Part shown: one piece after another, positions 5,036 to 21,808 of the stretch
Position numbering within the stretch: position 1 is the first letter of the stretch
Layout of the letters: the number at the start of each line of letters is the position of its first letter
DNA from: a virus
IMG/VR virus record: IMGVR_UViG_3300037504_001593
Coordinates: 1 to 35,258 of that record
DNA: 35,258 nucleotides
Direction: 5' to 3' (one strand)
Position numbers and translations under genes: made by a program
The notes under the pieces: model-generated
The model's database searches: none
The model's input: the letters and a program-made list of their open reading frames with translations, nothing else
What the model was told of the DNA's origin: nothing

Positions 5036-6250
5036 ATGCCATCCACCAATGAAGCACTCATGGACGCGGCAAATAGACATCAAGTCTATGTGCAGCGCTA
5101 TGGTTCTAGGGTGGCAAATGAAACTGTCGCTTTACTGAACAGAGCGGAGGCTGATCTTGTTGGACAGATATTTACGCGCTTGGATCGCATCACAGCACGC
5201 GGACGTGATCGCGGACCGGCAACTACCAGAAGACTGCAAGAGTTGCTTAGACAACTCAGAGAAATTAACGACGACATCTATGACGAAATGCATGGATTCG
5301 TCAGGGACGAATTGCGCTCGTTTGCGGAGAATGAAGCGCAACTTGCGGTAACGCGATTAACCGAAGCTACCTCAGCCGGCTTTGGTTACGTTGCGCCTAG
5401 TCAGACGACTTTGCACAATATTGTCGTTTCCAGGCCATTCGAAGGTCGGCATTTGCGCGGCTGGTTCAACCAATTAAATCGAGAGCAACAGAGTGGTATT
5501 GAACAGGCCATTAGGCAAGGTCTGCTTCAATCCATGACCAACGATCAAATTATCAACAGGATTCGCGGCACGAGAGCGGCGAATTATACAGATGGGATAC
5601 TTCATAGAAGTAGAAGACATGTCCAATCGGTAGTAAGGACTGCCACTAATTTTGTATCAAATGAGTCTCGGGAAGAGACCTATAATAACAATTCAGATAT
5701 AATTTTGGCGGTTCGTTGGACATCGACCTTGGATGGTCGAACTAGCCCAATCTGTCGTGCCAGAGATGGCAAGATGGCGCCGATTGGCGATACTACAGCC
5801 GGAGAGGTTAGCGCCATCGGGCAATTGCTCGATCCGCCTGGAGCTAGACCGCCGGCCCATATCAATTGCCGGTCAACAACAACGCCAATAACCCGGTCTT
5901 GGGCCGAAGTCCAAAGGATCAAAGGGACAGATGAATTCGAGGAAGGCTTCCACGAAAGGCTAAGAGAAAGGGGATTTTCGGAAGCTGAAATAAGACGTAT
6001 AAGATCAGATACACGAGCCTCCATGGATGGTCAAGTTCCGAAAGATGTGACCTATCAGGAATGGCTTAGAAGACAACCGCCGGAGTTTCAAGACGATGTG
6101 CTTGGTCCTACTCGCGCTCAGCTTTTTCGTGATGGTGATGTTAGTCTTGACCGTTTTGTAGATGAAAGTGGCGAGCAACTAACACTTGACGAATTAAAGT
6201 TAAGAGAGGCTGCAATTTGGAACAGAATATTTCCAGATCGTAATGGCTAG
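5036..6250 (+). CDS. MuF-like minor head protein
   Basis: This 404-aa protein belongs to the phage Mu F / SPP1 gp7 head-morphogenesis family (PF04233). These minor capsid proteins bind the portal and travel inside the head. The family signature lies at about residues 225-285: WTSTLDGRTSPICRARDGK, then RPPAHINCRSTTTPI, with paired Cys and His-x-x-Cys-Arg positions that resemble a metal site. The N-terminal half is helical and Arg/Gln-rich. No toxin domain is visible at the C-terminus, which ends soon after an Arg-rich helical stretch. The upstream sequence contains a repeated AGGGAAGTG (about 4997 and 5018). The gene lies in the usual place after the portal. Confidence 0.88.
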   Translation: MPSTNEALMDAANRHQVYVQRYGSRVANETVALLNRAEADLVGQIFTRLDRITARGRDRGPATTRRLQELLRQLREINDDIYDEMHGFVRDELRSFAENEAQLAVTRLTEATSAGFGYVAPSQTTLHNIVVSRPFEGRHLRGWFNQLNREQQSGIEQAIRQGLLQSMTNDQIINRIRGTRAANYTDGILHRSRRHVQSVVRTATNFVSNESREETYNNNSDIILAVRWTSTLDGRTSPICRARDGKMAPIGDTTAGEVSAIGQLLDPPGARPPAHINCRSTTTPITRSWAEVQRIKGTDEFEEGFHERLRERGFSEAEIRRIRSDTRASMDGQVPKDVTYQEWLRRQPPEFQDDVLGPTRAQLFRDGDVSLDRFVDESGEQLTLDELKLREAAIWNRIFPDRNG

Positions 6251-6332
6251 ACCTTGACATGAAAGGCGGGATTGATCCTTACAAGTTGATCCTTTTCTTT
6301 TTGGCAATCGAGATGATGTGGAAGAGGTTGAA

Positions 6333-6494
6333 ATGCCGGTACAACCTTGCAGATCAGATGGTAAGCCTGGCTATAAGTGGGGCGATCAAGGCAAATGCTA
6401 CACGTACACAGCGGGCAATGAAGAAAGTCGGGAGCGAGCGAAGGCAAAAGCCCGAGAACAAGGACAGGCCATAAAAGCGAATGATGGTGAATAA
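6333..6494 (+). CDS. conserved 53-aa phage protein with CRSDGKPGYKWG
   Basis: This short gene starts at ATG 6333 with AGAGG five bases upstream and ends at TAA 6494. Its product begins MPVQPCRSDGKPGYKWGDQG, continues KCYTYTAGNEESRERAKAKA, and ends in a basic, probably helical tail. I recognise this as a small protein seen after MuF genes in many phages. Its function is not known. Two Cys residues (6 and 22) in a Gly/Lys/Trp/Tyr-rich N-terminus suggest a compact fold or metal knuckle. A longer frame at 6259-6474 overlaps it but has no ribosome site, so it looks like the shadow. Confidence 0.75.
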   Translation: MPVQPCRSDGKPGYKWGDQGKCYTYTAGNEESRERAKAKAREQGQAIKANDGE

Positions 6495-6583
6495 TACATA
6501 AAAAAGTCCTTTTTTACAGCCAGATAGCACTTATCTTACTTATTGGATGATCCATTCATCCATCGGGTCGTTCCCTCCCAAAC

Positions 6584-6612
6584 TGGCCACCCTTATTGGG
6601 TGGCCATTTTTT
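6584..6612 (+). terminator. strong intrinsic terminator
   Basis: TGGCCACCC TTATT GGGTGGCCA (6584-6606) is a perfect 9-bp stem followed by six T. It closes the portal/MuF unit before the DUF115 gene. Confidence 0.92.
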
Positions 6613-6622
6613 ATGAAAAGTC

Positions 6623-6651
6623 TTTAAGTGGCCATCGATTGAATTTATAAA
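6623..6651 (+). promoter_or_regulatory. possible promoter for the DUF115 gene
   Basis: TATAAA (6646-6651) lies 17 bases after TTTAAG (6623-6628), a weak -35 match. Its place right after a strong terminator makes a promoter necessary, but the match itself is poor. Confidence 0.3.
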
Positions 6652-6657
6652 AGAAAA

Positions 6658-6733
6658 GTAATCTTTCCGAGGGATTACGAGACCGCTCTGTCGAGAAGCC
6701 CAAAGGCTAGCGGTATGCGGCTTTTGGGCTTCT
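6658..6733 (+). promoter_or_regulatory. two-hairpin leader of the DUF115 gene
   Basis: GTAATC/GATTAC (6658-6663/6673-6678) is followed by an 11-bp stem AGAAGCCCAAA/TTTGGGCTTCT (6694-6704/6723-6733). The second hairpin ends 8 bases before AAAGGA, the ribosome site of the gene at 6753. It may stabilise the message or gate translation. Confidence 0.5.
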
Positions 6734-6752
6734 TCACAAGAAAGGATTGCAT

Positions 6753-7577
6753 ATGAGCGAACAAAAAGTTAAATTTAAGAATGCTAATACAGTCAATCTT
6801 TTGAAATATGCTTGCGCCGCTTCTGAACTTGGCCTTCCGATGGCCAAACGAGATCAACACAAAGGTGAAAAAGGTGTTGTTATTGTTGGCATGGGATCAA
6901 GTATCGAAGACCCTGCTAGCAAGGACCATATTGTTAAAAGGTATGAGGAAGGCTATAAGATTTGCGCCCTGAAGTTTACAATTCGCTGGCTTAAAGAGCA
7001 ATTAGGCGTTCAACCGCATTTTACAGCACAAATGGACCCTGGACGACACCAGATTGATAAAACGCCAATTGATACCAATGTGATTTATTATCTAGCTTCC
7101 ACTTGCCATCCGCTCTTTTATCGCTGGCTCTTGGCTAATAAATGCGATGTACGCATTTTTCACTCCGCTTGTGGGCTGGCCAATGAACAGCATATCTACC
7201 ATTCACTTTTCGAGGAAAGCGCAACAACCATTGGTGGATTTACCGTGGGGAACCGGGCTGTTGGGCTTTGCGATTTTATGGGCTTCCCACATCCTATCGA
7301 GATGGTGGGTTTCGAATTCGGTTGGCGTAATGGGCAGGATTATTACGCAAAAGATGTGACTGATTATTTGCCGATTGATAATTGCTTCATGACTGACCAT
7401 GGAGCATTGGATGGGAATGAATGGCATACAAGGCCAGACCTTCTTGCATCGGCAATTACAGTCACGTATCAGCAAAAAGCTGGACTCGTAAAGGTCATCG
7501 GAGATAGTATCGTGAACAGCCTGATGGACAAGCCAGATGAGTATCTGGATCAAATATGCACCATCGGCAAAGAGTGA
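6753..7577 (+). CDS. DUF115 / Maf-like protein
   Basis: This 274-aa protein resembles DUF115 (PF01973). That domain is found in Maf-type flagellin nonulosonate transferases and related proteins, and in a number of phages. Visible family features are VVIVGMGSSIED at about 43-54, a strand-helix followed by LGVQPHFTAQMDPG at about 84-97, and FTVGNRAVGLCDFMGF then IEMVGFEFGW in the C-terminal half. The nucleotide-sugar-binding-like core is present but the larger helical parts of Maf are absent. ATG 6753 follows AAAGGA. The gene stands alone between a terminator and the scaffold gene, like a moron. It may act with the sugar cassette at 10-17 kb; catalysis is inferred only. Confidence 0.7.
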   Translation: MSEQKVKFKNANTVNLLKYACAASELGLPMAKRDQHKGEKGVVIVGMGSSIEDPASKDHIVKRYEEGYKICALKFTIRWLKEQLGVQPHFTAQMDPGRHQIDKTPIDTNVIYYLASTCHPLFYRWLLANKCDVRIFHSACGLANEQHIYHSLFEESATTIGGFTVGNRAVGLCDFMGFPHPIEMVGFEFGWRNGQDYYAKDVTDYLPIDNCFMTDHGALDGNEWHTRPDLLASAITVTYQQKAGLVKVIGDSIVNSLMDKPDEYLDQICTIGKE

Positions 7578-7597
7578 CAGTGTCACAGAGGTAGAAA

Positions 7598-8389
7598 ATG
7601 GCAAAGCTAAAGACCAAAGTTTCCGACATCAACGAAGTTCCCGAACATCTCAGAGAGCTGTACGAGGAAAACGAAGATGGTGAATTCGTTTTGGCTGTTG
7701 ATGGCGTGAAAGATCACCCAGATGTTACAGCCCTAAAGAATGCTCTCGATAGAGAGCGAACGGAACGAAAGAACTTCAAGAAGCAGATTGATGAACTAAA
7801 CGCAAAGTTTGGCGAAATTGATCTTCAAAAGTACAACGAGCTTCTTGAAAAGGCTGAACAGGCTGAAGAAGAAGAGTCCAAAAAGAAGGGCGACACTGAA
7901 GCGCTTATCCAGAAGCGCTTGGAGAAGCAACAGCGCGAATACGACCGGAAATTGGCGCAGTTGGATGAACAGCTTAAGTCTGTTACTTCCGAACGCGATA
8001 ATTTTAAGAACAACTTCATGAGAGAGAAGATCGGCTCTCAGGTCCGACAAGTTGCAACCGAGCGCGGCGTTCGTCCACGATTGATGAAATATGTAGAGCG
8101 TGATGCGCTTGAAGCATTTACTTTTGATGAAGATGGGAATATAATCGGTGTCGATGCTGATGGTGAGACACCAAGAAGCGATTTGACGGTGGATAAATGG
8201 CTTGATGAATTTCTTGTTGACAATGAAGATTTCATCCAGCCAAATGCCGGCGGGGTTTCCGACCGCAAAGGCGGCGGAACAACTCAAAAGAAGACCAAGG
8301 GCAAATCGATCTCGTTGGACGATCCCTTGGCCTTCGGGGAAAACCTCGAAGGAATCCTGTCCGGTGAAGTCACTGTTAACACAGAATGA
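7598..8389 (+). CDS. capsid scaffolding protein
   Basis: This 263-aa acidic, highly charged protein is probably the internal scaffold that directs coat assembly and leaves the prohead. Residues about 45-145 form a long coiled coil rich in Glu, Lys, Gln and Arg. Then come an Arg-rich helix (QVRQVATERGVRPRLMKYV) and a Gly/Lys-rich C-terminal tail, which in scaffolds often contacts the coat. There is no catalytic motif, so it is not a protease fusion. AGAGG lies about 8 bases before ATG 7598. The position immediately before the major capsid gene is the standard one. Confidence 0.85.
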   Translation: MAKLKTKVSDINEVPEHLRELYEENEDGEFVLAVDGVKDHPDVTALKNALDRERTERKNFKKQIDELNAKFGEIDLQKYNELLEKAEQAEEEESKKKGDTEALIQKRLEKQQREYDRKLAQLDEQLKSVTSERDNFKNNFMREKIGSQVRQVATERGVRPRLMKYVERDALEAFTFDEDGNIIGVDADGETPRSDLTVDKWLDEFLVDNEDFIQPNAGGVSDRKGGGTTQKKTKGKSISLDDPLAFGENLEGILSGEVTVNTE

Positions 8390-8400
8390 GGAAAAGACGC

Positions 8401-8440
8401 GCCAAAGGCTCAGTGAGCTTGGCGGTTCGTAACAGCCAAG
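8401..8440 (+). promoter_or_regulatory. mutually exclusive hairpins before the major capsid gene
   Basis: Stem A pairs GCCAA (8401-8405) with TTGGC (8419-8423), with an inner GCTC/GAGC stem. Stem B pairs CTTGGC (8418-8423) with GCCAAG (8435-8440). They share 8419-8423 and cannot coexist. Stem B ends at the GTGAGG ribosome site (8440-8445). Confidence 0.5.
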
Positions 8441-8454
8441 TGAGGTAAACCGCA

Positions 8455-9591
8455 ATGGCAAGCAATTCGCTTACCAACATCCTGCCGAAAATCCTGGCTT
8501 CTGGGCTAATGGCGCTTCGCGAGCGTGCTGTCATGCCGCGGCTCGTTACTGGCGATTACCAGGGTGAAGCTGCCCAGAAAGGCAGCACGATTGACATCCC
8601 GCTGTCGAAGTCTCAGACCGTCAGCGATGTCACTTCGGCACCGACTTACAGTTCTGCTCAGGCCAACACACCGGGTCTTGTGCAGATTCCTCTTGATCAG
8701 TGGAAGCATACCGACTTCTACCTGACCGACAAGGAAATGGTGCAAATCGACCGCAATCGTCACTTTGTGCCGATGCAGCAGGCCGAAGCAGTCAAAGCTT
8801 TGGCCAATACCATGGACAAATACCTACACAATCGCGCCAAAGAAGTCTATGGCTTCGTTGGTACCGCCGGCGCTACACCTTTTAGTACAGTTGCGACCAC
8901 GACTGATGCTCGTAAGGTGCTGAACAACCAGCTTGCTCCTATGATGGATCGTAACATGGTTATCGATCCTGACGCGGAAGCCCAAGCGCTGCAGCTGTCG
9001 GCGTTTTCTGATGTCTCCCAGACTCAGGATCGCGCTGTGAAGATTGAAGGTGAGCTTGGCCGTAAATTCGGCTTTGACATCTTCATGTCGCAGAACGTTC
9101 AGACGCATACCGCGGGCGCTGATGCCGGCGGCATCACTATCGGTTCGGCCATTGCAGCCGATTCGAGTTCCATTCAGCTTACCGCTTCGGGTGCTGGCAC
9201 CGTCCTTGCTGGTGATGTGTTCACTATTGCCGGTGACAGTCAGACCTATGTTGCGTTGACTTCGGCCAATGCGACTTCTACCGCCTCCAAGCTGCGGATC
9301 GATCCGCCGTTGAAAATGATCGCTTCTTCGGGTGATGCTGTCACTCGCAAAGCGTCGCATACGGTCAATCTGGCCTTCCATCCGATGGCCTTCGCCTTTG
9401 CTACTCGCCCGCTTTCGAGCGCGGCCGGTGGTCTTGGCGGTGCGCAGTTCATGTCGGCGACTGACCCGATTACTGGCCTGTCTCTCAGACTTGAGGTTCT
9501 GCGCCAGTATAAGCAGGTTGCCTTCGACTTCGACGTTCTGTACGGCGGCAAGTGCATTCGCCCGGAATACGCGGTCCGTATTGCTGGGTAA
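8455..9591 (+). CDS. major capsid protein (P22 coat-like)
   Basis: This 378-aa protein fits the P22 gp5 coat family (PF11651), a HK97-fold shell protein. The family opening is seen in NSLTNILPKILASGLMALRERAVMPRLV, then GSTIDIPLSKSQTV and WKHTDFYLTDKEM. A Gly/Ala/Ser/Thr-rich beta insert occupies about 220-300. The end, ITGLSLRLEVLRQYKQ...DVLYGGKCIRPEYAVRI, is typical. GAGG lies about 10 bases before ATG 8455. Base composition is distinctly more GC-rich than in neighbouring genes, with little codon variety, as expected for the most abundant product. An intrinsic terminator follows directly. Confidence 0.93.
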   Translation: MASNSLTNILPKILASGLMALRERAVMPRLVTGDYQGEAAQKGSTIDIPLSKSQTVSDVTSAPTYSSAQANTPGLVQIPLDQWKHTDFYLTDKEMVQIDRNRHFVPMQQAEAVKALANTMDKYLHNRAKEVYGFVGTAGATPFSTVATTTDARKVLNNQLAPMMDRNMVIDPDAEAQALQLSAFSDVSQTQDRAVKIEGELGRKFGFDIFMSQNVQTHTAGADAGGITIGSAIAADSSSIQLTASGAGTVLAGDVFTIAGDSQTYVALTSANATSTASKLRIDPPLKMIASSGDAVTRKASHTVNLAFHPMAFAFATRPLSSAAGGLGGAQFMSATDPITGLSLRLEVLRQYKQVAFDFDVLYGGKCIRPEYAVRIAG

Positions 9592-9623: not shown

Positions 9624-9650
9624 AAGGGGCTTCACAGCCCCTTTTCTTTT
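9624..9650 (+). terminator. intrinsic terminator after the capsid gene
   Basis: AAGGGGCT TCAC AGCCCCTT (9624-9643) is a perfect 8-bp stem with a T-rich tail (TTCTTTT). It marks the left border of the cargo cassette. Confidence 0.9.
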
Positions 9651-9680: not shown

Positions 9681-10058
9681 ATGCGTCTCCCTACCGTTAC
9701 TCTCACTCGTAAGTCAGATGGAAAGAAGATCAAGGTGAATGCATGGGAATATTCCACAAACATGCAGAAGTATCTCAGGAAGGGTTTTAAAATCCGTCAT
9801 GAGCAACTTAATGTGGACACTCCGGCTGTTGTGGTTGAGAATGCGGCTAAAGAAGATCGCATTGAACAGAAGCGTCGCCGTAGTCCGAACAGCCCTGCTT
9901 TCGACGATCCAAGAAGAGAATACGAATTCAAAAATCAATCCCCGCCGGAAGTGAGTACAGAATCGAAGCCCGAAGTTGATCGGGACGAAACCGCCAAGAG
10001 AACGGTCAATCGAGCCAGAAAGACCACTGGCAGAAAGGTAAGCGATGACAACGAGTAA
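9681..10058 (+). CDS. hypothetical charged protein after the capsid gene
   Basis: A 125-aa protein without a family I can name. The N-terminal 40 residues (MRLPTVTLTRKSDGKKIKVN, then AWEYSTNMQKYLRKGFKI) look folded, with two strands and a helix. The remaining two thirds are disordered-looking, Lys/Arg/Glu-rich and poor in hydrophobic residues. AAGAGG lies about 10 bases before ATG 9681. The stop overlaps the next gene by 14 bases. Its place just after the coat suggests a minor head protein, but a link to the sugar cassette downstream is equally possible. Confidence 0.7.
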   Translation: MRLPTVTLTRKSDGKKIKVNAWEYSTNMQKYLRKGFKIRHEQLNVDTPAVVVENAAKEDRIEQKRRRSPNSPAFDDPRREYEFKNQSPPEVSTESKPEVDRDETAKRTVNRARKTTGRKVSDDNE

Positions 10059-10839
10059 AGCAGCCTTTACTTCTTTCTCCCATGATGGTTATTTGGAATA
10101 TGGGAAAAGGAACATCGAAACATTCTTGGAAAACTGGCCGGAGTCAGTTAATCTAACAGTGTATTTTGATGCGGAAATAACCGAAATAGATATTGTTAGA
10201 GAATTTGATAGCGAAAGGATCAAAACTGTTGATACATTTTCGCTTACCACTATGAAAGAATTTTTATATTCGGTTTCATTCTTCCCGCTTTTCCGCGGGA
10301 TGTATGATTCCGGGCATGGCCTGACTTATGATTACAGGATGAATGCCAGATTTGGCAGGAAGCCATTCATCTATCAGGATGCAATCCTTAAGCATAATGG
10401 AATAATGGATAAGATTTTCTGGATTGATGGCGATGTGATTACCCATACGCCTATGCCGGAAGAGTTCCTAGATGAAGTCCTTCGGGATGATGCCATGATC
10501 AGCTATTTGGGCCGGCAGGGCATGCATAGCGAATGTGGCTTTATCGGTTTCAATCTCAACAATCCTTATGCTGCGGCATTTGTAGAGATGATGGTTGGGA
10601 TTTACAAGTCTGGCACATTTGTCACCCTAGGCGAGTGGCACGACAGTTTCGTTTTCGATGTTGTTCGTCAGGCTTTCGAACAGCAGGTTGCTGGCGGAAC
10701 GTTCCAGAACCTAAGCCCTGATTTTGTCAAGGGCAAAAACGGTGATTCTCATGTATTTGTCAAGGGAGTTCTTGGCAAATATATGGATCATCTGAAGGGC
10801 AACCGGAAGCATTTGGACAGATCACCAGAAGCTGAATAA
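10045..10839 (+). CDS. GT-A-type glycosyltransferase
   Basis: This 264-aa protein has the outline of a GT-A glycosyltransferase. FWIDGDVITH at about 125-134 carries the D-x-D motif (D128, D130) that binds metal and nucleotide sugar. SECGFIGFNL at about 162-171 is the acceptor-side segment often seen after it. LGEWHDSFVFDVV at about 195-207 supplies a further acidic pair. The N-terminal part (FTSFSHDGYLEYGKRNIETF) resembles small phage and bacterial transferases of this type. No membrane segment is visible, so it should be soluble. AAGG lies about 7 bases before ATG 10045. It opens the cargo block and is joined to the isomerase gene with no gap. Confidence 0.78.
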   Translation: MTTSKAAFTSFSHDGYLEYGKRNIETFLENWPESVNLTVYFDAEITEIDIVREFDSERIKTVDTFSLTTMKEFLYSVSFFPLFRGMYDSGHGLTYDYRMNARFGRKPFIYQDAILKHNGIMDKIFWIDGDVITHTPMPEEFLDEVLRDDAMISYLGRQGMHSECGFIGFNLNNPYAAAFVEMMVGIYKSGTFVTLGEWHDSFVFDVVRQAFEQQVAGGTFQNLSPDFVKGKNGDSHVFVKGVLGKYMDHLKGNRKHLDRSPEAE

Positions 10840-11445
10840 ATGAACACAGTTGGTCGTGTAATTAGGGCGGAGAGAGACGCACTCTCCGCCTTTTTTTCAG
10901 ATGATTCGCAGATAGCGAATATTTCTGAAATATCGAGCGCAATCGCAGCTTCGGCCGGTGTTGTGACTACTGGCGTTGGAAAATGTAGTTATATTGCCGG
11001 AAAAGCAGCGTCAACATTTTCGAGCCTGCATATCCCGGCAAGGTATATTCATCCGACTGAAGCTAGTCATGGCGATTTAGGAAGCATCAATTTTGTTGAC
11101 ACTCTTTTAGTGTATTCTTATTCAGGTGGGAGCCGAGAGCTTTCCGATATCATGATCTTTTGCAGAAATTTCAACATAGAAGTTATAGGTATTACAGCAG
11201 GCGGTAAAGGCTCGCTTGTATTCGATCTTTCTGATTATGTTATAAAGTTGCCTATATTGAATGGTGATGGTTGGGAATACATAGCACCAACTATTTCAAC
11301 AACATTAATGCTCGCTATTTCTGATGCCCTGGCTGTAGCCGCTGCAGAAGAAAAAGGGATCGAATTGGATGATTTCTTGGATGTCCATCCGGGTGGATTG
11401 CTTGGGAAGATGCCAAGGGGCTGTGGTCAGAAGAAACGTCTTTAA
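10840..11445 (+). CDS. KdsD-like SIS-domain sugar-phosphate isomerase
   Basis: This 201-aa single SIS domain (PF01380) looks like D-arabinose 5-phosphate isomerase (KdsD/KpsF), which converts ribulose 5-phosphate to arabinose 5-phosphate, the first step to Kdo. Family marks are GVGKCS (K48), EASHGDLG (H77), YSYSGGSREL (E100), APTISTT (149-155) and DVHPGGLLGK (H183). Bacterial KdsD is about 330 aa and has two CBS domains; these are absent, as in minimal forms. The usual SGES is SGGS here, so activity needs testing. The ATG follows the previous stop directly without its own ribosome site, suggesting translational coupling. No other Kdo gene (kdsA, kdsB, kdsC) is present, so it would feed the host pathway. 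Confidence 0.82.
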   Translation: MNTVGRVIRAERDALSAFFSDDSQIANISEISSAIAASAGVVTTGVGKCSYIAGKAASTFSSLHIPARYIHPTEASHGDLGSINFVDTLLVYSYSGGSRELSDIMIFCRNFNIEVIGITAGGKGSLVFDLSDYVIKLPILNGDGWEYIAPTISTTLMLAISDALAVAAAEEKGIELDDFLDVHPGGLLGKMPRGCGQKKRL

Positions 11446-11448
11446 GAA

Positions 11449-11464
11449 AGCTCTTAAAAGAGCT
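11449..11464 (+). other. short inverted repeat AGCTCTT AA AAGAGCT
   Basis: A perfect 7-bp inverted repeat lies between the isomerase gene and the small gene at 11498. There is no T-run. It may be an operator or an RNA-processing hairpin. Confidence 0.4.
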
Positions 11465-11497
11465 ATATAAAGAAAAGAGGATTATAAAGGGGTTGGG

Positions 11498-11659
11498 ATG
11501 TCAATAACTGCTCAAGCAAAAGCTGCGCGCCGCAAAGCTCGACATGACTGGCGTTATGCTAATAGCAAGAACAAAGACCCGATTGCTATTGCCAGACGGC
11601 AAGCTGCACTTGTCTATAAACAAAATGCAATGAGAAACAGGAAGTCGCAAAAGAAATGA
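11498..11659 (+). CDS. 53-aa basic protein of unknown function
   Basis: A short gene begins at ATG 11498 with AAGGGG five bases upstream and ends at TGA 11659. It overlaps the next ATG by 3 bases (ATGA). The product begins MSITAQAKAARRKARHDWRY and ends in KQNAMRNRKSQKK. About a third of its residues are Lys or Arg and it has no Cys, so it is very basic and probably helical. It might bind nucleic acid or polyanionic glycan. It could be a modification substrate of the cassette, but nothing in it resembles a known precursor-peptide leader. The strong ribosome site and coupling make it a likely real gene. Confidence 0.65.
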   Translation: MSITAQAKAARRKARHDWRYANSKNKDPIAIARRQAALVYKQNAMRNRKSQKK

Positions 11660-12336
11660 ACGCTCTTCGAAATATCAAATCTTATGTTGATGGCGTCGGC
11701 GGAAAAGCCGAGAAAATCACACTAAAAGATGGCGGAACCGGGGAAAGGTGCCAAGCAAAAAGGCTTGACGAAGTTCCGCCAGATGCCAAGTCTCGATATT
11801 GTATGGTTATTGATTTTTGTAAAGATTTTCAAAAGCCTCTGAGAATTCTCGATGCTGGTTGCGGTGTTGGATTTGGTTCTTACATGCTCGCTCAATCTGG
11901 TTATTTAGTAACTGGTGTTGATTTCTGTCCTCATGCATTAAATCATGCAAGGAAACATTTTTTCATTAGTAATCAATATCTTCTCTATCAAGTTGCAGAC
12001 TTGATGGAAATGAACCCTAATTTTGTTGCTCAAGATGTAATAGTTGCATTCGAAGTATTAGAACACCTTGCTTTTCCTGAGAAATTTCTACAGTGGGTGA
12101 AGAACCATACACAATATTTCTTTGTTAGCGTTCCTAATCAAGCTGAAAACCCATATGATCCTGTGAATTTCCCATTCCATTTTCAACATTATACGCCATA
12201 TGAGCTTTACGAAATCCTTGATCGTAATGGTTTCGAAGTTCAAAAGTATTTTTGTCAAAGAGACAAATGGAAGTATGACATTCATAACGGAACGAATGGT
12301 AGAACATTAATTGCTGTCTGCAAGGTGAAGTCATGA
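11656..12336 (+). CDS. class I SAM-dependent methyltransferase
   Basis: This 226-aa protein has a complete class I methyltransferase core. Motif I is LDAGCGVGFGS at residues 65-75. The ribose-binding acid is D89 in GVDF. The motif IV region AFEVLEHL follows at about 130-137. The sequence resembles UbiG-type methyltransferases that act on sugars, quinones or small molecules. Residues 1-55 carry an extra N-terminal segment. The gene is clearly more AT-rich than the head genes, suggesting separate origin. It overlaps both neighbours by 3-4 bases and is probably cotranslated with them. The substrate is unknown; a sugar hydroxyl is plausible from context. Confidence 0.82.
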   Translation: MNALRNIKSYVDGVGGKAEKITLKDGGTGERCQAKRLDEVPPDAKSRYCMVIDFCKDFQKPLRILDAGCGVGFGSYMLAQSGYLVTGVDFCPHALNHARKHFFISNQYLLYQVADLMEMNPNFVAQDVIVAFEVLEHLAFPEKFLQWVKNHTQYFFVSVPNQAENPYDPVNFPFHFQHYTPYELYEILDRNGFEVQKYFCQRDKWKYDIHNGTNGRTLIAVCKVKS

Positions 12337-12887
12337 CTCCACATCACCATTATGAATTACAGCTTTTATTAGACTTGGCATCTAAGTATGATGTTAGGTC
12401 TTACTTGGAGATTGGATGTCGTAATGGAATGAGTTTTTCTTTCATGTCAAGGGCTTTCAGGCCGGCAGCTAGGATGGTGGCTGTAGAGTATCCATACGGA
12501 CCATGGAATGGCCAACCAAAGTCAAATAAGACATTGAAAAATTTGGTTGGTGTTTGTAGAGTATTATCAGAAGATTATGATGTTCAATTGATACTTGGGA
12601 ATAGTCGAGATCAATATGTAATAAATCAAGCTGCTGAATTAGGACCATATGGTCTAATCTATATTGATGGTGATCATACTTATGAGGGTGTAAAAGCCGA
12701 TTGGGAGAATTATAGATCAATGGGCAAAATGATTGCGTTTGATGATATCCGAAATACAATTCCTAGCTCTACTGGCGATATTCCTGGTGTCTATAGACTT
12801 TGGGATGAAATTAAGGAACAAGGATATTTTTGGACTGAGTTATGTGCTGATGGAACCGACCAAGGAATAGGAGTTATACAATTATGA
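12333..12887 (+). CDS. Methyltransf_24-type methyltransferase
   Basis: This 184-aa protein matches the Methyltransf_24 type (PF13578), common in sugar- and peptide-modifying clusters. Motif I is LEIGCRNGMS at residues 25-34. The second signature IDGDHTYEGVKADW (111-124) holds the acidic/His residues that bind metal in related catechol-type O-methyltransferases. FDDIR at 136-140 adds a third acidic site. The family includes enzymes that methylate hydroxyl groups on sugars. It overlaps the previous gene by ATGA and the next gene by 4 bases. Like its neighbour it is AT-rich compared with the head genes. Confidence 0.82.
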   Translation: MTPHHHYELQLLLDLASKYDVRSYLEIGCRNGMSFSFMSRAFRPAARMVAVEYPYGPWNGQPKSNKTLKNLVGVCRVLSEDYDVQLILGNSRDQYVINQAAELGPYGLIYIDGDHTYEGVKADWENYRSMGKMIAFDDIRNTIPSSTGDIPGVYRLWDEIKEQGYFWTELCADGTDQGIGVIQL

Positions 12888-13774
12888 CAACTTTTGGTAT
12901 CCTTCTTCCCTCAGATAAAAACCCTGAACATTCATATGTATTATGTAGTTTTGCTCAGGGTATTCAGGAACATGGTGATCAATTCAAGATTTCGGCTGAC
13001 CCAAACAAGTTAGTAGACTGCGATGTTGCAGTAATATTTGGTATGTATAAGAAGCTGGTTCCGGCATCGCATGCTCGTGGCTGGTTGTTTGAAAGATTTC
13101 GCGCGCGCAATAAGAGCGTCGTTGTAATCGACAGTGGCTATATTCAACGTCATAAGTATTACATGGTTGGCTTAAATGGCCTGAATGGAAGGGCGGAGTT
13201 CCCGAAGCCTACCAGTGGCATTCGTGCGGTTCAAAATGGTTCTTACGATCTTCTCCGGCCTTGGAGGGAAGAAGGTGATCATGTATTGCTAATCGGTCAG
13301 GTTCCTTGGGATGCTTCGGTCGAAGGAACTAGTCACATTAAATGGATCGAGGACACTATCAATTGCTTCAGGAAGATTGGGAATCGGCGAGAGCTTAGGT
13401 TCCGCCCACATCCAAAAGTTGGCATAGAAGCTTACGTTAGATACCTTCCGATGCAAGGCATCGTTAATATTTCTACATCATCATCACTGGAAGATGATCT
13501 GAAAAATTGCTGGGCTGTAATCACATTCAACTCGAATGTTGGGGTTGATGCAGTCCTTGCCGGCATCCCTGTTTTTACTGCCGATCCCGGTTCTATGGTT
13601 AGGGATGTTTCGAATAGAACTTTCCCGATGAATATCGAACCGGCCCATTCTTGCCCAACAGGACCGAAGATTTTCGAGCGAGATAAATGGTTAAAATGGA
13701 TTTCTTACGCTCAATGGACTACAGAAGAAATGAGGTCAGGTGAATGTCTGAACAACCTATCAACCATCCTTTAA
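12884..13774 (+). CDS. capsule/Kdo-transferase-like protein (KpsS-type)
   Basis: This 296-aa protein resembles the second half of GT-B-like capsule export and Kdo-transferase proteins (Capsule_synth, KpsS/KpsC-type). The telling stretch is RFRPHPK at residues 182-188, then TSSSLEDDL (198-206) and TFNSNVGVDAVLAGIPVF (224-241). In that family these form the CMP-Kdo-binding region. KpsS-type proteins add Kdo to the capsule lipid anchor. The KdsD-like gene in the same block fits a Kdo-like sugar. The protein is shorter than host KpsS (about 390-400 aa), so the N-terminal domain is reduced. It overlaps the following small gene by 31 bases. Confidence 0.65.
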   Translation: MTTFGILLPSDKNPEHSYVLCSFAQGIQEHGDQFKISADPNKLVDCDVAVIFGMYKKLVPASHARGWLFERFRARNKSVVVIDSGYIQRHKYYMVGLNGLNGRAEFPKPTSGIRAVQNGSYDLLRPWREEGDHVLLIGQVPWDASVEGTSHIKWIEDTINCFRKIGNRRELRFRPHPKVGIEAYVRYLPMQGIVNISTSSSLEDDLKNCWAVITFNSNVGVDAVLAGIPVFTADPGSMVRDVSNRTFPMNIEPAHSCPTGPKIFERDKWLKWISYAQWTTEEMRSGECLNNLSTIL

Positions 13775-13953
13775 ATGGAAAGCGCTCTTCGGCTAGTATC
13801 ACTCAGTCATATGATGGCCGATGGTACGTCTCTATAGTCATCGGTCCGCTGGATCGAAAAGACTTGGCTGATGCTGTAGTCGAATCGTTCGCTATAGTAA
13901 TGAGGGAATCAGGGGCAAGCTGCCGCATCGATGGCGAGAGCCGGGAGAATTGA
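13744..13953 (+). CDS. 69-aa hypothetical protein
   Basis: A small protein in the cassette that I do not recognise. Residues 18-60 suggest a beta-beta-alpha fold: SASITQSYDGRWYVSIVIGP, then a helix DLADAVVESFAIVMRESG. The N- and C-termini are polar. It has one Cys. GAGG and AGG lie 10 and 5 bases before ATG 13744, and the start overlaps the previous gene by 31 bases. It may be an accessory subunit of a neighbouring enzyme. No catalytic motif is visible. Confidence 0.6.
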   Translation: MSEQPINHPLNGKRSSASITQSYDGRWYVSIVIGPLDRKDLADAVVESFAIVMRESGASCRIDGESREN

Positions 13954-13956
13954 AAA

Positions 13957-14457
13957 TTGAACTTTGAAACACTGTTCAAAATGGGGATGGATCGCGACCT
14001 TCCGCAATTGCTTGAACCCAAACAGGGGCTTTCTGTAGGGCTTGGTGAGAGTGGAACCAAACGTTATGGGCGGGATATTAGCTTAGGTCTGCCCGATTGG
14101 AAGTGGCCACGCGACCGCATCCCTGTTGATGGTGGAACTGTGGCAATTATCCATGCCTATCATTTCTTGGAGCATTTGACAGGAGAAGATGCAATCGAAC
14201 TATTGTTCGAATGCCAGCGTGCGCTTATGCCGGGCGGCATCTTTCAATTCTGTATCCCTTGGGCAAAAACATCAATGGCATTGCACGATCTGACTCACAA
14301 GAGTTGGTGGAACGAGGACAGTTTCAAAAATCTTCTAAACAATCATTATTATGATCCATCTGTTGGGAGAGCGCTCAAATTTCGCCAACATTACCTCGTC
14401 TTGGCTGGTATTGTTGAACGCAATATAGCCATCCTTGGTCAACTTGTGAGAGAATGA
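13957..14457 (+). CDS. reduced methyltransferase-like protein, TTG start
   Basis: This 166-aa protein resembles the C-terminal half of small class I methyltransferases. AIIHAYHFLEHL at about 63-74 is the motif IV/post-IV region, and ALMPGGIFQFCIPW at about 89-102 is the strand 5 region. The first part has LSVGLGESGTKRYGRD in place of a normal glycine-rich motif I, so SAM binding is doubtful. The frame begins at TTG 13957, with GGGAG about 8 bases upstream and only three bases after the previous stop. ATG 13981 is an alternative but lacks a ribosome site. It may be a degenerate enzyme or an accessory partner of the methyltransferase genes upstream. Confidence 0.65.
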   Translation: MNFETLFKMGMDRDLPQLLEPKQGLSVGLGESGTKRYGRDISLGLPDWKWPRDRIPVDGGTVAIIHAYHFLEHLTGEDAIELLFECQRALMPGGIFQFCIPWAKTSMALHDLTHKSWWNEDSFKNLLNNHYYDPSVGRALKFRQHYLVLAGIVERNIAILGQLVRE

Positions 14458-14461
14458 GAAC

Positions 14462-15418
14462 ATGACCTGCATAACAGAACGTATCGACGCAATCACGAGA
14501 ATTCCGAAGGAATACAGAACTGCAACTCCACCTTGTCCGAAATCCGTGAAAATCGAGCTTACCGCTCGTTGCAATTTCAATTGTGCATTCTGTGCTAGGT
14601 CGCAGCGTTTGCGCGACCAAAAGGACATGGATTTTGATTTCTTCCGGCGCATTCTTTTCGAGATGCGGAAAGAAGGTGTTGAAGAAATTGGCTTGTTCTA
14701 TCTTGGCGAAAGTTTCCTTTACCCTCGTCTTGAGGAAGCTGTAAGGTTTGCTAAGCATAATGCTGGCTTTCCTTACGTCTTCCTGACAACCAATGGCTCG
14801 ATTAGCACTCCCAAAAAGGTTGCCCAGCTTATCGAAGCTGGGCTTGATAGCCTGAAGTTCTCGGTAAATTATGCTGACAAGGAGCAATTCGAGCAAGTTG
14901 CTAGGGTTAAGGGCAAGATGTTCGATGCGATGCTTACGAACATCAAGGGTTGCCGGGAAGCCCGTGATGAGATTTACCACAGAACTGGTAAGTGGTGTGG
15001 TCTCTATGCCAGTTACATCAAGTTCAACGATGAACAAGATGTAGCAATGAGAGACCTTATTGACAATCATGTAAGTCATTGGGTTGATGAGGTCTATGCC
15101 CTGCCGCTGTACAATCAGGCCGCCTTTATCGAGGAAGGCGAAGGCGACTGGCAATTCTCGGCCGGCAATAGGGGTAGGATCGGCGCTCTCCGCGATCCAT
15201 TGCCTTGCTGGGCGCTCTTCACCGAAGGCCATATCACCTACGACGGCAAGCTCTCGGCTTGTTGCTTTGACCATGATGGTCGCTTCCATATGGGCGACTT
15301 AAACAGAGAAGGGTTCATGCAGTCTTGGAATTCCGAGCGGTTCCAATGGCTGAGGCAAGCCAATCTCGCCAAAGACGTTCGCGGAACCCCGTGTGAAAAC
15401 TGCGTGGCGTATTTCTGA
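14462..15418 (+). CDS. radical SAM/SPASM enzyme
   Basis: This 318-aa protein is a radical SAM enzyme. C37-x3-C41-x2-C44 (within TARCNFNCAFCA) binds the SAM-cleaving 4Fe-4S cluster. FLTTNGS at about 107-113 matches the barrel strand after it, and LDSLKFSVN at 128-136 is a further barrel element. The C-terminus has a SPASM-like cysteine set: C249, C267, C268, C311 and C314. Relatives modify peptides, sugars or nucleosides, or are of unknown role. No typical precursor peptide lies beside it. A sugar or protein target made by the same block is plausible. ATG 14462 follows GAGAATGAG, and the stop overlaps the next ATG as TGATG. Confidence 0.87.
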   Translation: MTCITERIDAITRIPKEYRTATPPCPKSVKIELTARCNFNCAFCARSQRLRDQKDMDFDFFRRILFEMRKEGVEEIGLFYLGESFLYPRLEEAVRFAKHNAGFPYVFLTTNGSISTPKKVAQLIEAGLDSLKFSVNYADKEQFEQVARVKGKMFDAMLTNIKGCREARDEIYHRTGKWCGLYASYIKFNDEQDVAMRDLIDNHVSHWVDEVYALPLYNQAAFIEEGEGDWQFSAGNRGRIGALRDPLPCWALFTEGHITYDGKLSACCFDHDGRFHMGDLNREGFMQSWNSERFQWLRQANLAKDVRGTPCENCVAYF

Positions 15419-16146
15419 TGATCTTCTGCAATGGCGCTCCCAAGACTGGAACTAACATCCTGCAAAAACTTTGCGGGATGTTAGGTTTTCAAGATTCAGA
15501 ACTGTTCTTTCTGGCATTCCACGACAGGTTACTTGCCAGAAAGATCGGTGATGACTTGGAGAAAATAGAGATTGATCCTACAAGTATTGACATGGATCAA
15601 TACCGCAATCATTTCTGCCATTCGCATATATGCGATCTATTAACACAGAATTTACGCTCGTTCAAAGTGTTGCATTCCATTCGTGATCCAAGGGATTCTC
15701 TTATTTCCTATTTGAGATGGAAGGAGAAGAAGGAAATCATTCCTGAAATCAATGAAGAGATCATTATTGATACATTAGCAAGAGGTCTTTGGGAAAAGCG
15801 CACATCTGATTGGTGCGAGACTTGGGTTCAATTCCAATTCTCTTACTTAGGATGGGTGTTTTCACCATTTGATGTTTTCATTGTAAAGTTTGAGCATATG
15901 GGGGATGCGGCAGTTATTGACGCTATTGCAAATTTCGTTGGCATTGAAGACTGTGATGCTGAGGAAATTGCCGACAACCTTATTGGGAATGGCAAGTTCT
16001 ATGGCATTAAGGAAATGTATAAATCCAAGTCTTCTTATGTTGATGGTAAATCAAGATGGGAGGATTACTGGACAGATGGAATAGAACAAGTCTGGAAATT
16101 TGCCCATGGCGATAGGCTTCTGGCGATGATGGGGTATGACGTATGA
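15418..16146 (+). CDS. sulfotransferase-like protein
   Basis: This 242-aa protein has the PAPS-binding marks of a sulfotransferase. The 5'-phosphosulfate loop is GAPKTGTNIL at residues 6-15 with K9. The 3'-phosphate loop is SIRDPRDSLISYLRW at about 87-101 with the conserved Arg and Ser. A late SRWEDYWT segment resembles the RKG region. The reaction expected is transfer of sulfate from PAPS to a hydroxyl or amine, here perhaps a sugar. PAPS must come from the host. There is no signal peptide or membrane segment, so it should be cytoplasmic. It overlaps both neighbours by 1-4 bases. Confidence 0.78.
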   Translation: MIFCNGAPKTGTNILQKLCGMLGFQDSELFFLAFHDRLLARKIGDDLEKIEIDPTSIDMDQYRNHFCHSHICDLLTQNLRSFKVLHSIRDPRDSLISYLRWKEKKEIIPEINEEIIIDTLARGLWEKRTSDWCETWVQFQFSYLGWVFSPFDVFIVKFEHMGDAAVIDAIANFVGIEDCDAEEIADNLIGNGKFYGIKEMYKSKSSYVDGKSRWEDYWTDGIEQVWKFAHGDRLLAMMGYDV

Positions 16147-16913
16147 TGGAAAATTGCGAAATCTTCATCGGTTGGGATACCTTTGAGCAACAGGCTTATA
16201 AGGTGGCAGAAGGCTCGATTAGAAGAAGAGCTTTCAGATGCCCGGAAATTCACAAATTGGATTTCAGAGAGCTTGTTGATAAAGGTCTGTTCTATCGGAA
16301 GATGGGTTTTACCGATAAAGGTATCTTGTGGGATGAAATCTCTCAGGCGCCTTGCTCTACAGAATTCGCCATCAGCCGGTTCTTGACTCCAATCATATCG
16401 ACCAAGCCTTGGTCGCTATTCGTCGATTGCGACATTGTTTGCTTGGAAGATATTTGGGATTTATTCCAGTATGCCGACAATCGGTATGCAGTGCAGGTAG
16501 TCAAGCACAAAATGCCAATGAAAGCGAATCAACGCTTCAAAATGCAAGGTATTGAACAGACTGAATATAGTCGGAAAAACTGGTCTTCAGTTATGTTGTT
16601 CAATAATCATCATCCATCAAATCGGCGTCGTCTTACAGTCGATTTAGTCAATTCAATTCCGGGGAAACATCTTCATAATTTCTGTTGGTTGGCAGATAAT
16701 GAAATTGGGTGTTTACCTCATGAATGGAATTATCTTGTTGACGTAAGCCCGCCAACGAAAAGCAATCCTAAGATCATGCATTATACCCTTGGCGGACCTT
16801 GGCTCGGGAAATGGGAACCAAGGCCAAGCGACAAGGTTTGGAATGAGGAATTCGCGATCATTCAAGGGATGATTAACGGGGAAGACGATCTGCAAGGCGA
16901 ATTCCCATTCTAA
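16143..16913 (+). CDS. GT-A-type glycosyltransferase with DxD
   Basis: This 256-aa protein is likely a GT-A glycosyltransferase. FVDCDIVCLED at about 93-103 holds the D-x-D motif (D95, D97). WSSVMLFNN (147-155) and IMHYTLGGPW (211-220) supply the later strand and the His that completes the metal site in GT8-like families. The N-terminus (FIGWDTFEQQAYKVAEGSI) is typical of small transferases of this kind. It is the last enzyme of the cassette and is followed by a strong terminator. The first gene of the cassette is also a DxD transferase, but the two are not close copies. Confidence 0.78.
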   Translation: MMENCEIFIGWDTFEQQAYKVAEGSIRRRAFRCPEIHKLDFRELVDKGLFYRKMGFTDKGILWDEISQAPCSTEFAISRFLTPIISTKPWSLFVDCDIVCLEDIWDLFQYADNRYAVQVVKHKMPMKANQRFKMQGIEQTEYSRKNWSSVMLFNNHHPSNRRRLTVDLVNSIPGKHLHNFCWLADNEIGCLPHEWNYLVDVSPPTKSNPKIMHYTLGGPWLGKWEPRPSDKVWNEEFAIIQGMINGEDDLQGEFPF

Positions 16914-16927
16914 CAACCTCATAGGAA

Positions 16928-17015
16928 GGCCATACGCGCGCAACAATGGGCTTCTAGGTCTTAGGATACCTAGAAGCCCTTTTGCTTGCCTACGGGCTTC
17001 CTAGCGCCGTATGGC
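16928..17015. repeat. nested inverted repeats around the cassette terminator
   Basis: GCCATACG (16929-16936) pairs with CGTATGGC (17008-17015), enclosing the terminator hairpin. GGGCTTCCTAG (16994-17004) could compete for CTAGAAGCCC of that hairpin. GGCCATACGCGCGCA (16928-16942) matches 1628-1642 at 14 of 15 bases. Confidence 0.55.
16948..16983 (+). terminator. intrinsic terminator ending the cassette
   Basis: GGGCTTCTAGGT (16948-16959) and ACCTAGAAGCCC (16968-16979) form a perfect 12-bp stem with an 8-base loop, followed by TTTT. It ends the cargo transcript and separates it from the tail genes. Confidence 0.85.
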
Positions 17016-21286: not shown

Positions 21287-21808
21287 ATGGCTATGTCACC
21301 ATTATCCCTCGTGGTTGAAAATGGAACAGGAAAGACTAACTCGAATTCATATTGCACAGTGGAAGAAGCGGATGAATACCATCTCAGCCGCTTTAATTCT
21401 GCATCCTGGCAGAATACAACGTCGCACACAAGAGAAACGGCATTAGTCTGGGCAACAAGATTACTAGACGAAAGTGTTGATTGGGCCGGTGAAGCAGCCA
21501 ATACTGACCAAGCTCTTGGCTGGCCAAGGATTGGTGTTCAGGAAAAGAACCATTATCAATATTTCGACCACAATGAAATTCCAACTTGGCTGAAGAATGC
21601 CACAGCCGAATTGGCTCGATACCTAATCAATGAAGATCGTACTGCAGAACCGGATGATTCCGGCTATTCGTCTATTAAGGTTGGTCCTATCAGCCTTGAA
21701 ATAGATAAATCAGACCGAAAGTCTATCCTTCCCAGATCGGTGAAGAATATGGTTTCTCACTATGCTCACATCTATGGCGAAGGAACTATTCGGCTGGCGA
21801 GGTCATAA
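21287..21808 (+). CDS. head-tail adaptor (DnaT-like family)
   Basis: This 173-aa protein matches the phage family annotated as putative DnaT-like, now generally read as the head-tail adaptor that docks below the portal. Marks are VENGTGKTNSNSYCTVEEADEYH at the start, RETALVWATRLLDE, DQALGWPRIGV at about 75-85, and PTWLKNATAELARYLI. The C-terminus with SSIKVGPISLEIDKS is also typical. Helical bundle structure is expected. It opens the run of connector genes, and its stop overlaps the next ATG (TAATG). The name DnaT is historical; no replication role is implied. Confidence 0.78.
   Translation: MAMSPLSLVVENGTGKTNSNSYCTVEEADEYHLSRFNSASWQNTTSHTRETALVWATRLLDESVDWAGEAANTDQALGWPRIGVQEKNHYQYFDHNEIPTWLKNATAELARYLINEDRTAEPDDSGYSSIKVGPISLEIDKSDRKSILPRSVKNMVSHYAHIYGEGTIRLARS

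Follow-up and report, generated by a model that had tools for sequence, protein, structure and literature searches.

A cassette of sugar-transferring and sugar-modifying enzymes among the head genes of an uncultured siphovirus as a candidate virion glycosylation system

Background

Documented glycosylated virions are those of a few mycobacteriophages. Their glycosylation was shown by mass spectrometry (Freeman et al. 2023, as cited in PMC12619734 and PMC11600133), and Maf enzymes can transfer Kdo (3-deoxy-D-manno-octulosonic acid) to serine and threonine residues of flagellin (PMC11339370). The present analysis concerns the IMG/VR record IMGVR_UViG_3300037504_001593 (positions 1 to 35,258, the whole 35,258-nt stretch being called the window below), an incomplete genome with the terminase, portal, head morphogenesis, scaffold, P22-type coat protein, neck, tail and fibre genes of a siphovirus. 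Nine enzymes are encoded at 10045-16913: two GT-A transferases, a KdsD-type isomerase, two clear methyltransferases and an apparently degenerate one, a transferase of the KpsC/KpsS fold, a radical-SAM (S-adenosylmethionine)/SPASM enzyme and a sulfotransferase. A tenth enzyme gene, Maf/MptE-like, lies outside this range but within the head block (6747-7577). Phage-encoded glycosyltransferases accompanied by modifying enzymes, as expected of a virion glycosylation system, are thus present, and the locus probably, on balance, encodes a cytoplasmic O-glycosylation system that resembles those of flagellin and has virion proteins as its targets.

A slot between the capsid and adaptor genes

The cassette and a 1034-residue fibre-like protein lie in a slot between the genes of the major capsid protein (MCP) and the head-tail adaptor (Ad1). 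Relatives were collected with an MCP alignment whose rows came from cassette-bearing phages, with no cassette gene in the query; 80 loci were returned, 66 of which have a slot bounded on both sides. Of these slots, 18 are occupied; they span 3454-8402 bp, and the MCPs of their phages are 52-60% identical to that of the window. The other 48 are empty, with 67-1546 bp (median 332) between the flanking genes and with MCPs 40-50% identical to the window's, and in cassette-free relatives such as SSP002 and ctokW459 the neck genes follow the MCP gene almost directly. An MCP scan with the window's peptides alone had found only distant, cassette-free relatives, a picture that the alignment scan reversed. 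The occupied slots contain a KpsS-like transferase (17/18), the methyltransferase MT1 (16/18), GT8 (12/18) and GTA (12/18) in varying order and combination; the radical-SAM gene is present in one of the 18 and was rejected as a required part of the cassette. An earlier note on this DNA had named occurrence only by chance in this genome as an outcome that would refute its proposal of a glycan cassette; the set recurs widely in other phages.

Occupied slots of the window's lineage hold a KdsD gene or a GDP-mannose 4,6-dehydratase gene, never both: the counts are 8 versus 10 in loci chosen by KpsS (P=2e-5) and 6 versus 9, with three having neither, in loci chosen by MCP (P=0.009), where both P values are inflated by near-duplicate contigs and, like all those given here for locus associations, are uncorrected for phylogeny. 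The KdsD-type sister cassettes comprise GT9, KpsS-like, in some cases GT8, a Sulfotransfer_2 protein, an unknown, an FkbM methyltransferase, MT1 and KdsD, followed by Ad1; that of the window has the same kinds of function, with a sulfotransferase of another family and a radical-SAM gene in addition. To judge from such sequence comparisons, it looks as if related phages swap sugar modules in one slot.

A Maf-like gene that accompanies the cassette

The strongest sign that the cassette and the Maf-like gene serve one function is that the two stay together although the scaffold and capsid genes lie between them. When MCP-chosen loci with at least 2.6 kb of readable upstream sequence are counted, the Maf-like gene is found in all 16 cassette-bearing loci, whereas only one of the 35 without a cassette has it (Fisher 2e-12); this exception (L265) has neither Ad1 nor a cassette within 10 kb after the MCP gene.

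The similarities of the 6747 protein make it a candidate protein O-glycosyltransferase. The best solved relative of the phage Maf-like family profile is PDB 5mu5 (E=1e-7), the Maf flagellin glycosyltransferase of Magnetospirillum, followed by MptE, and there is a weak match (E=0.3) to sialyltransferases that use sialic acid activated with cytidine monophosphate (CMP). Elsewhere, one phage protein (L096:11551-13035) fuses a sulfotransferase to an MptE-like domain, and in another phage (L015) an MptE-like domain is fused to a methyltransferase.

Kdo as the candidate sugar

The KpsC/KpsS-fold transferase scores below the curated cut-off of PF05159 (E=0.009, 15.9 bits versus 20), but the 26 best PDB matches of its AlphaFold model (predicted with 12 relatives; predicted local distance difference test, pLDDT, 84) are the Kdo transferases KpsC, WbbB and KrkA (E 7e-9 to 2e-6, at 11-14% identity), so that the earlier description of this protein as KpsS-like is borne out by its fold. 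The motif GQVPWD is invariant in its six nearest members, all of which keep Q139/D143 and H176-P177; D143 aligns with the catalytic Asp160 of Escherichia coli KpsC, and H176-P177 with the HP of KpsC/WbbB. In retaining beta-Kdo transferases, the D of the invariant QXXXD motif is the nucleophile that forms the Kdo adduct (PMC10148158).

Relatives of the Kds enzymes were sought with the E. coli K-12 proteins. Among 78 further KpsS-like loci, 8 have KdsD. KdsA lies near a KpsS-like gene in phage L177, phage L230 has both KdsB and KdsD, and KdsB also occurs in the radical-SAM loci L094 and L216; within the capsid lineage of the window, the association of KdsD with KpsS is regular. Arabinose-5-phosphate isomerase catalyses the first committed step to Kdo. 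Because the KpsS-like fold with its QxxxD motif, the KdsD-type isomerase in the same operon and the KdsA and KdsB genes near relatives point the same way, Kdo is the likely sugar of the window's cassette, as predicted from sequence and a structural model.

The radical-SAM gene and the wider cassette family

The radical-SAM protein has a CxxxCxxC motif and C-terminal SPASM cysteines (invariant Cys 37, 41, 44, 249, 267, 268, 311 and 314), but none of the NCBIfam radical-SAM subfamily cut-offs is reached; by inference only, it may edit the glycan or a peptide. Its relatives in viral contigs number 132, of which 80 were kept, giving 75 loci with a called open reading frame (ORF). Neighbours within 6 kb on the same strand are GT8 (43/75), a tetratricopeptide repeat (TPR) protein with a glycosyltransferase (GT)-like C-terminus (28/75), KpsS-like (18/75), GDP-mannose dehydratase (14/75) and DegT aminotransferase (13/75). 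A recognised virion gene occurs within 5 kb in 46 loci, which says little by itself, structural genes filling much of phage genomes. Their location is more specific: in phages of four MCP families (phrog_283, 334, 1328, 1357), the cassettes lie either in the slot from MCP to adaptor or immediately ahead of the terminase. In the maximum-likelihood tree of radical-SAM proteins, the head types are mixed (30 changes versus a minimum of 5, the well-supported branches alone forcing 5, 9, 6 and 4 changes for four head types), and the gene therefore moves between head lineages.

In other head lineages, the TPR+GT protein stands in place of the Maf-like gene. The two are never together in 169 loci (0 with both, 16 and 49 with one; P=0.007, confounded with head lineage). 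As the Maf-like and TPR+GT proteins both resemble cytoplasmic flagellin O-glycosyltransferases (Maf and FlmG), a protein acceptor is proposed.

A Burkholderiaceae copy of the radical-SAM gene (L097:8272-17615, 59% identical) has a cytochrome d1-like gene on one side and NarX/NarL/NarK-type genes on the other. No function was assigned from bacterial context, the neighbourhoods being unrelated (cytochrome d1-like/NarXL, or the gene alone). A literature search for a phage with radical SAM, glycosyltransferase and sulfotransferase together found no paper.

Gene content and transcription unit

The features of the locus are listed in Table 1. Enzymes were assigned with Pfam, PHROGs, NCBIfam, solved structures and two structure predictions. 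The MCP is at most 43% identical to those of cultured phages, with Vibrio Mardecavirus and an environmental siphovirus coming closest; Megablast of the cassette region against cultured phages gave no match, and neither RNA families nor tRNAs were found in the window.

Table 1. Features of the cassette and its surroundings (window coordinates)
Feature	Coordinates	Strand	Evidence and remarks
Maf/MptE-like protein, 276 aa	6747..7577	+	Flanked by head morphogenesis and scaffold genes; PF01973 E=6e-10, above cut-off
MCP, P22-coat type	8455..9591	+	phrog_283 E=7e-80; left slot edge, candidate acceptor
Terminator-like hairpin after MCP gene	9624..9643	listed on -	Terminator-like also when read on +
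Small charged head-accessory ORF	9681..10058	+	35% identity over 86 aa to post-MCP ORF of sister phage L037, E=1e-9
GT-A fold transferase	10045..10839	+	DxD (WIDGD); 12-sequence alignment, predicted model pLDDT 88.7
Single-domain KdsD-type arabinose-5-phosphate isomerase (SIS), 201 aa	10840..11445	+	PF01380 above cut-off
Terminator-like hairpin inside start of isomerase ORF	10864..10892	+	Run of seven T; folding z=-3.7
Small basic ORF, 53 aa	11498..11659	+	
Methyltransferase MT1	11656..12336	+	PF13489 E=3e-16; relatives in 39/78 KpsS-scan loci
Methyltransferase MT2	12333..12887	+	PF13578 E=1e-10
KpsC/KpsS-fold transferase, candidate beta-Kdo transferase	12884..13774	+	QxxxD (Q139, D143), H176-P177
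Small ORF, 69 aa	13744..13953	+	
Methyltransferase-like MT3	13957..14457	+	phrog_6636 E=8e-31; weak in Pfam
Radical-SAM/SPASM enzyme	14462..15418	+	PF04055 E=6e-18, PF13186 E=1e-12, both above cut-offs
Sulfotransferase	15418..16146	+	PF00685 E=1e-8, above cut-off
GT8-like transferase	16143..16913	+	DxD (FVDCD); phrog_28018 E=6e-49; relatives in cultured phages
Strong terminator closing cassette unit	16948..16979	+	
Fibre-like protein, 1034 aa	17414..20518	+	Malectin domain (residues 559-677) PF11721 E=4e-21; candidate acceptor or glycan binder
Head-tail adaptor Ad1	21287..21808	+	phrog_477 E=4e-34; right slot edge

The ORFs of the cassette, their order and their strand are as the earlier note gave them, and the two DxD transferases, the radical-SAM/SPASM enzyme and the KdsD-like isomerase that it had proposed were all recovered. 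The model of the 10045 transferase has Foldseek matches to GT6 and glycogenin (E about 1e-8), and this fold search settled an assignment for which the GTA profile had found nothing convincing among PDB sequences. The 16143 transferase falls just under the Pfam cut-off of PF01501 (E=1e-3). The isomerase matches phrog_5670 'arabinose 5-phosphate isomerase' (E=1e-30) and solved phosphosugar isomerases (E=3e-21) and carries the SIS-domain motifs GVGK, SHGDLG and HPGG; as a SIS domain only, it scores 93-94 bits, versus equivalog cut-offs of 481-505 for full-length KdsD/GutQ in NCBIfam. Single-protein scans with GT8 and with SIS found nothing. The proposed sulfotransferase passes the Pfam threshold and keeps the motifs PKTGTN and RDPRDSLISY, which bind the sulfate donor 3'-phosphoadenosine-5'-phosphosulfate. 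Two of the three supposed methyltransferase-like proteins are clear; MT3 is without an obvious N-terminal SAM motif and is possibly degenerate.

The description of the genes as all overlapping in one operon is nearly right: most of them touch or overlap their neighbours, and 52, 3 and 4 nt separate the others. Counted from the 9681 gene, the spacings are -14, 0, 52, -4, -4, -4, -31, 3, 4, -1 and -4 nt, two of these intervals flanking the small ORFs of 53 and 69 aa. Since the ORF at 9681-10058 overlaps the 10045 gene by 14 nt, the transcription unit probably starts at 9681 and not at 10045; by eye, similar ORFs follow the MCP genes of L195, L197 and L184. The limits first drawn for the cassette therefore enclose the nine enzymes but probably not the start of the unit, and the related Maf/MptE-like gene was missed. 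Of the two terminators said to flank the cassette, the downstream one is strong, and the upstream hairpin is listed on the minus strand, yet is terminator-like on the plus strand too. The strong hairpin at 10864-10892 is a possible attenuator of the remaining operon.

Candidate acceptors

The fibre-like protein contains at least nine repeats of 22 aa and is 24% serine plus threonine. It is absent from most sister phages, which have either nothing there or an unrelated protein of 665-675 aa (L040, L185). In L015, a 789-aa fibre with serine-rich SVLSQQ/SNALS repeats (6070-8439), a possible acceptor, is encoded directly upstream of the MptE-methyltransferase fusion and the radical-SAM gene.

Proposed mechanism and alternatives

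The gene content, folds, motifs, slot and co-occurrence described above are observed; from them a glycan, its acceptor and sugar, late expression, an order of steps and a benefit to the phage are inferred as follows. The KdsD-type isomerase would make arabinose-5-phosphate and so raise the host's supply of CMP-Kdo. In the way that Maf acts on flagellin, the Maf-like protein would set the first CMP-activated acidic sugar on serine or threonine of a head protein, either the MCP or the fibre rich in these residues; the KpsC/KpsS-fold and two GT-A transferases would lengthen the glycan, and the methyltransferases, sulfotransferase and radical-SAM/SPASM enzyme would cap or edit it. The particle would thereby acquire a charged glycan specific to the phage, which might alter adsorption, shield the particle or set its surface type. 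A bolder and somewhat doubtful scenario is that a phage clade turned flagellin-type cytoplasmic O-glycosylation on its own capsid. The glycan would be based on Kdo, methylated, sulfated and, in the phage of the window, edited by the radical-SAM enzyme, and related phages would exchange its donor genes (Kdo versus GDP-6-deoxyhexose) in a fixed slot, giving virion 'serotypes'.

Several observations weigh against decoration of virion proteins. The 6747 protein has 276 aa versus the 666 aa of 5mu5 and thus lacks the length of a full multi-domain Maf, although the homologous MptE-like core is present (PF01973, 5mu5). The loci with a Maf-like gene and a cassette share descent, and their association represents one clade with both parts and not many independent events. 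Over all loci, KdsD and KpsS are not significantly associated (P=0.12). The MCPs of cassette-bearing phages show no clear excess of serine and threonine, the close bacterial radical-SAM copies (three among the matches listed) have unrelated neighbourhoods with no glycan context, and in the Pelagibacter phage Mosig a similar gene run lies away from structural genes.

The earlier note had offered two targets, the virion and the host surface. If the enzymes acted on precursors of host lipopolysaccharide or capsule, a changed cell surface during infection or lysogeny could block superinfection; Kdo transferases and KdsD do belong to bacterial lipopolysaccharide and capsule synthesis, and the GT8- and KpsS-like runs of Mosig and the Caulobacter phage CcrSC lie outside the head block. 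However, known serotype-conversion systems need a membrane protein and are usually located elsewhere than the head block, whereas this cassette is in the head block, is linked to the Maf-like gene, encodes no evident membrane protein or membrane helix, and is without a flippase, polymerase, exporter or initiating membrane transferase. Action on the host surface is accordingly unlikely. Decoration of the virion is the better supported target, given the slot between MCP and adaptor, the Maf-like gene that tracks the cassette and the lack of an evident membrane protein; it is favoured also because the same enzyme families recur in the head and neck blocks of phages with unrelated capsids. That recurrence, with motifs intact, the joint presence of the families in occupied slots and the Maf-like gene across the MCP gene make it rather improbable that the genes form an unlinked moron or metabolic island in which accessory genes collected where insertion is tolerated, without a joint product. 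Such an island would agree with the variable order and content of the cassette, with the use of the region after MCP as an insertion place for accessory genes, and with the position of the closest cellular radical-SAM copy (among the matches listed) near cytochrome d1-like and NarXL genes. Arabinosylated DNA is known in T4-type phages, where KdsD-like genes are present, and the transferases might act on modified bases in the phage's DNA and so protect it from restriction; phage DNA is known to be hypermodified by some glycosyltransferases (cited in PMC12619734). This alternative is very improbable, as no base-modifying enzyme was seen in the window (an incomplete genome) and the cassette is among head genes. 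Sulfotransferase, Maf-like and Kdo-transferase folds do not fit DNA modification either, having no known role in it.

Comparison with known systems

Interchangeable versions of the set occupy this position in many uncultured phages, which suggests that glycan-decorated particles are much more widespread among phages than the handful of known examples. If virion glycosylation is the function, it could be read from sequence by its predictable position, recurrent enzymes and exchangeable sugar module. The cassette family would then point to acceptors and sugars that can be tested, and might account for differences in how particles adsorb or are cleared. It could also supply soluble enzymes for glycosylation, among them a radical-SAM family that is uncharacterised and a compact core of the Maf type, which may work with Kdo.

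Among cultured phages, Mosig and CcrSC both have GT8 and KpsS-like families; Mosig shares GTA, methyltransferases and a sulfotransferase with the window as well, and CcrSC a methyltransferase and GT9. In contrast to the window, the Mosig run is not beside structural genes and that of CcrSC follows a tail gene, and no Maf-like, KdsD or radical-SAM match was found in either run. In Mosig (L169, 4940-10774), methyltransferases, GTA, GT8, two KpsS-like proteins, a sulfotransferase and a glycosyltransferase form one run beside nucleotide-metabolism genes. The phage KpsS-like protein has the fold and the QxxxD and HP motifs of KpsC/KpsS/WbbB, but is short, divergent, below the Pfam cut-off and unaccompanied by export genes.

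Maf flagellin glycosyltransferases, which use CMP-activated ulosonic acids including Kdo on serine and threonine in the cytoplasm (CbMaf, PMC11339370), share the MptE-like core with the phage protein, which is that core only, with predicted activity, and whose acceptor would be a virion protein. The TPR + GT-B layout of the cytoplasmic O-glycosyltransferase FlmG (PMC7591256) is that of the TPR+GT protein (cluster 3) of other head lineages; it is not found in the window's lineage, and the known acceptor of FlmG is flagellin. According to the papers cited for mycobacteriophages, those phages resemble the window in encoding glycosyltransferases and an O-methyltransferase, with a capsid or tail-tube protein as the proposed target. 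The window's cassette, predicted from its genes, differs from theirs in adding Kdo-type, sulfate, Maf-like and radical-SAM functions, and cassettes of its type lie in the head block, in phages of unrelated capsid families.

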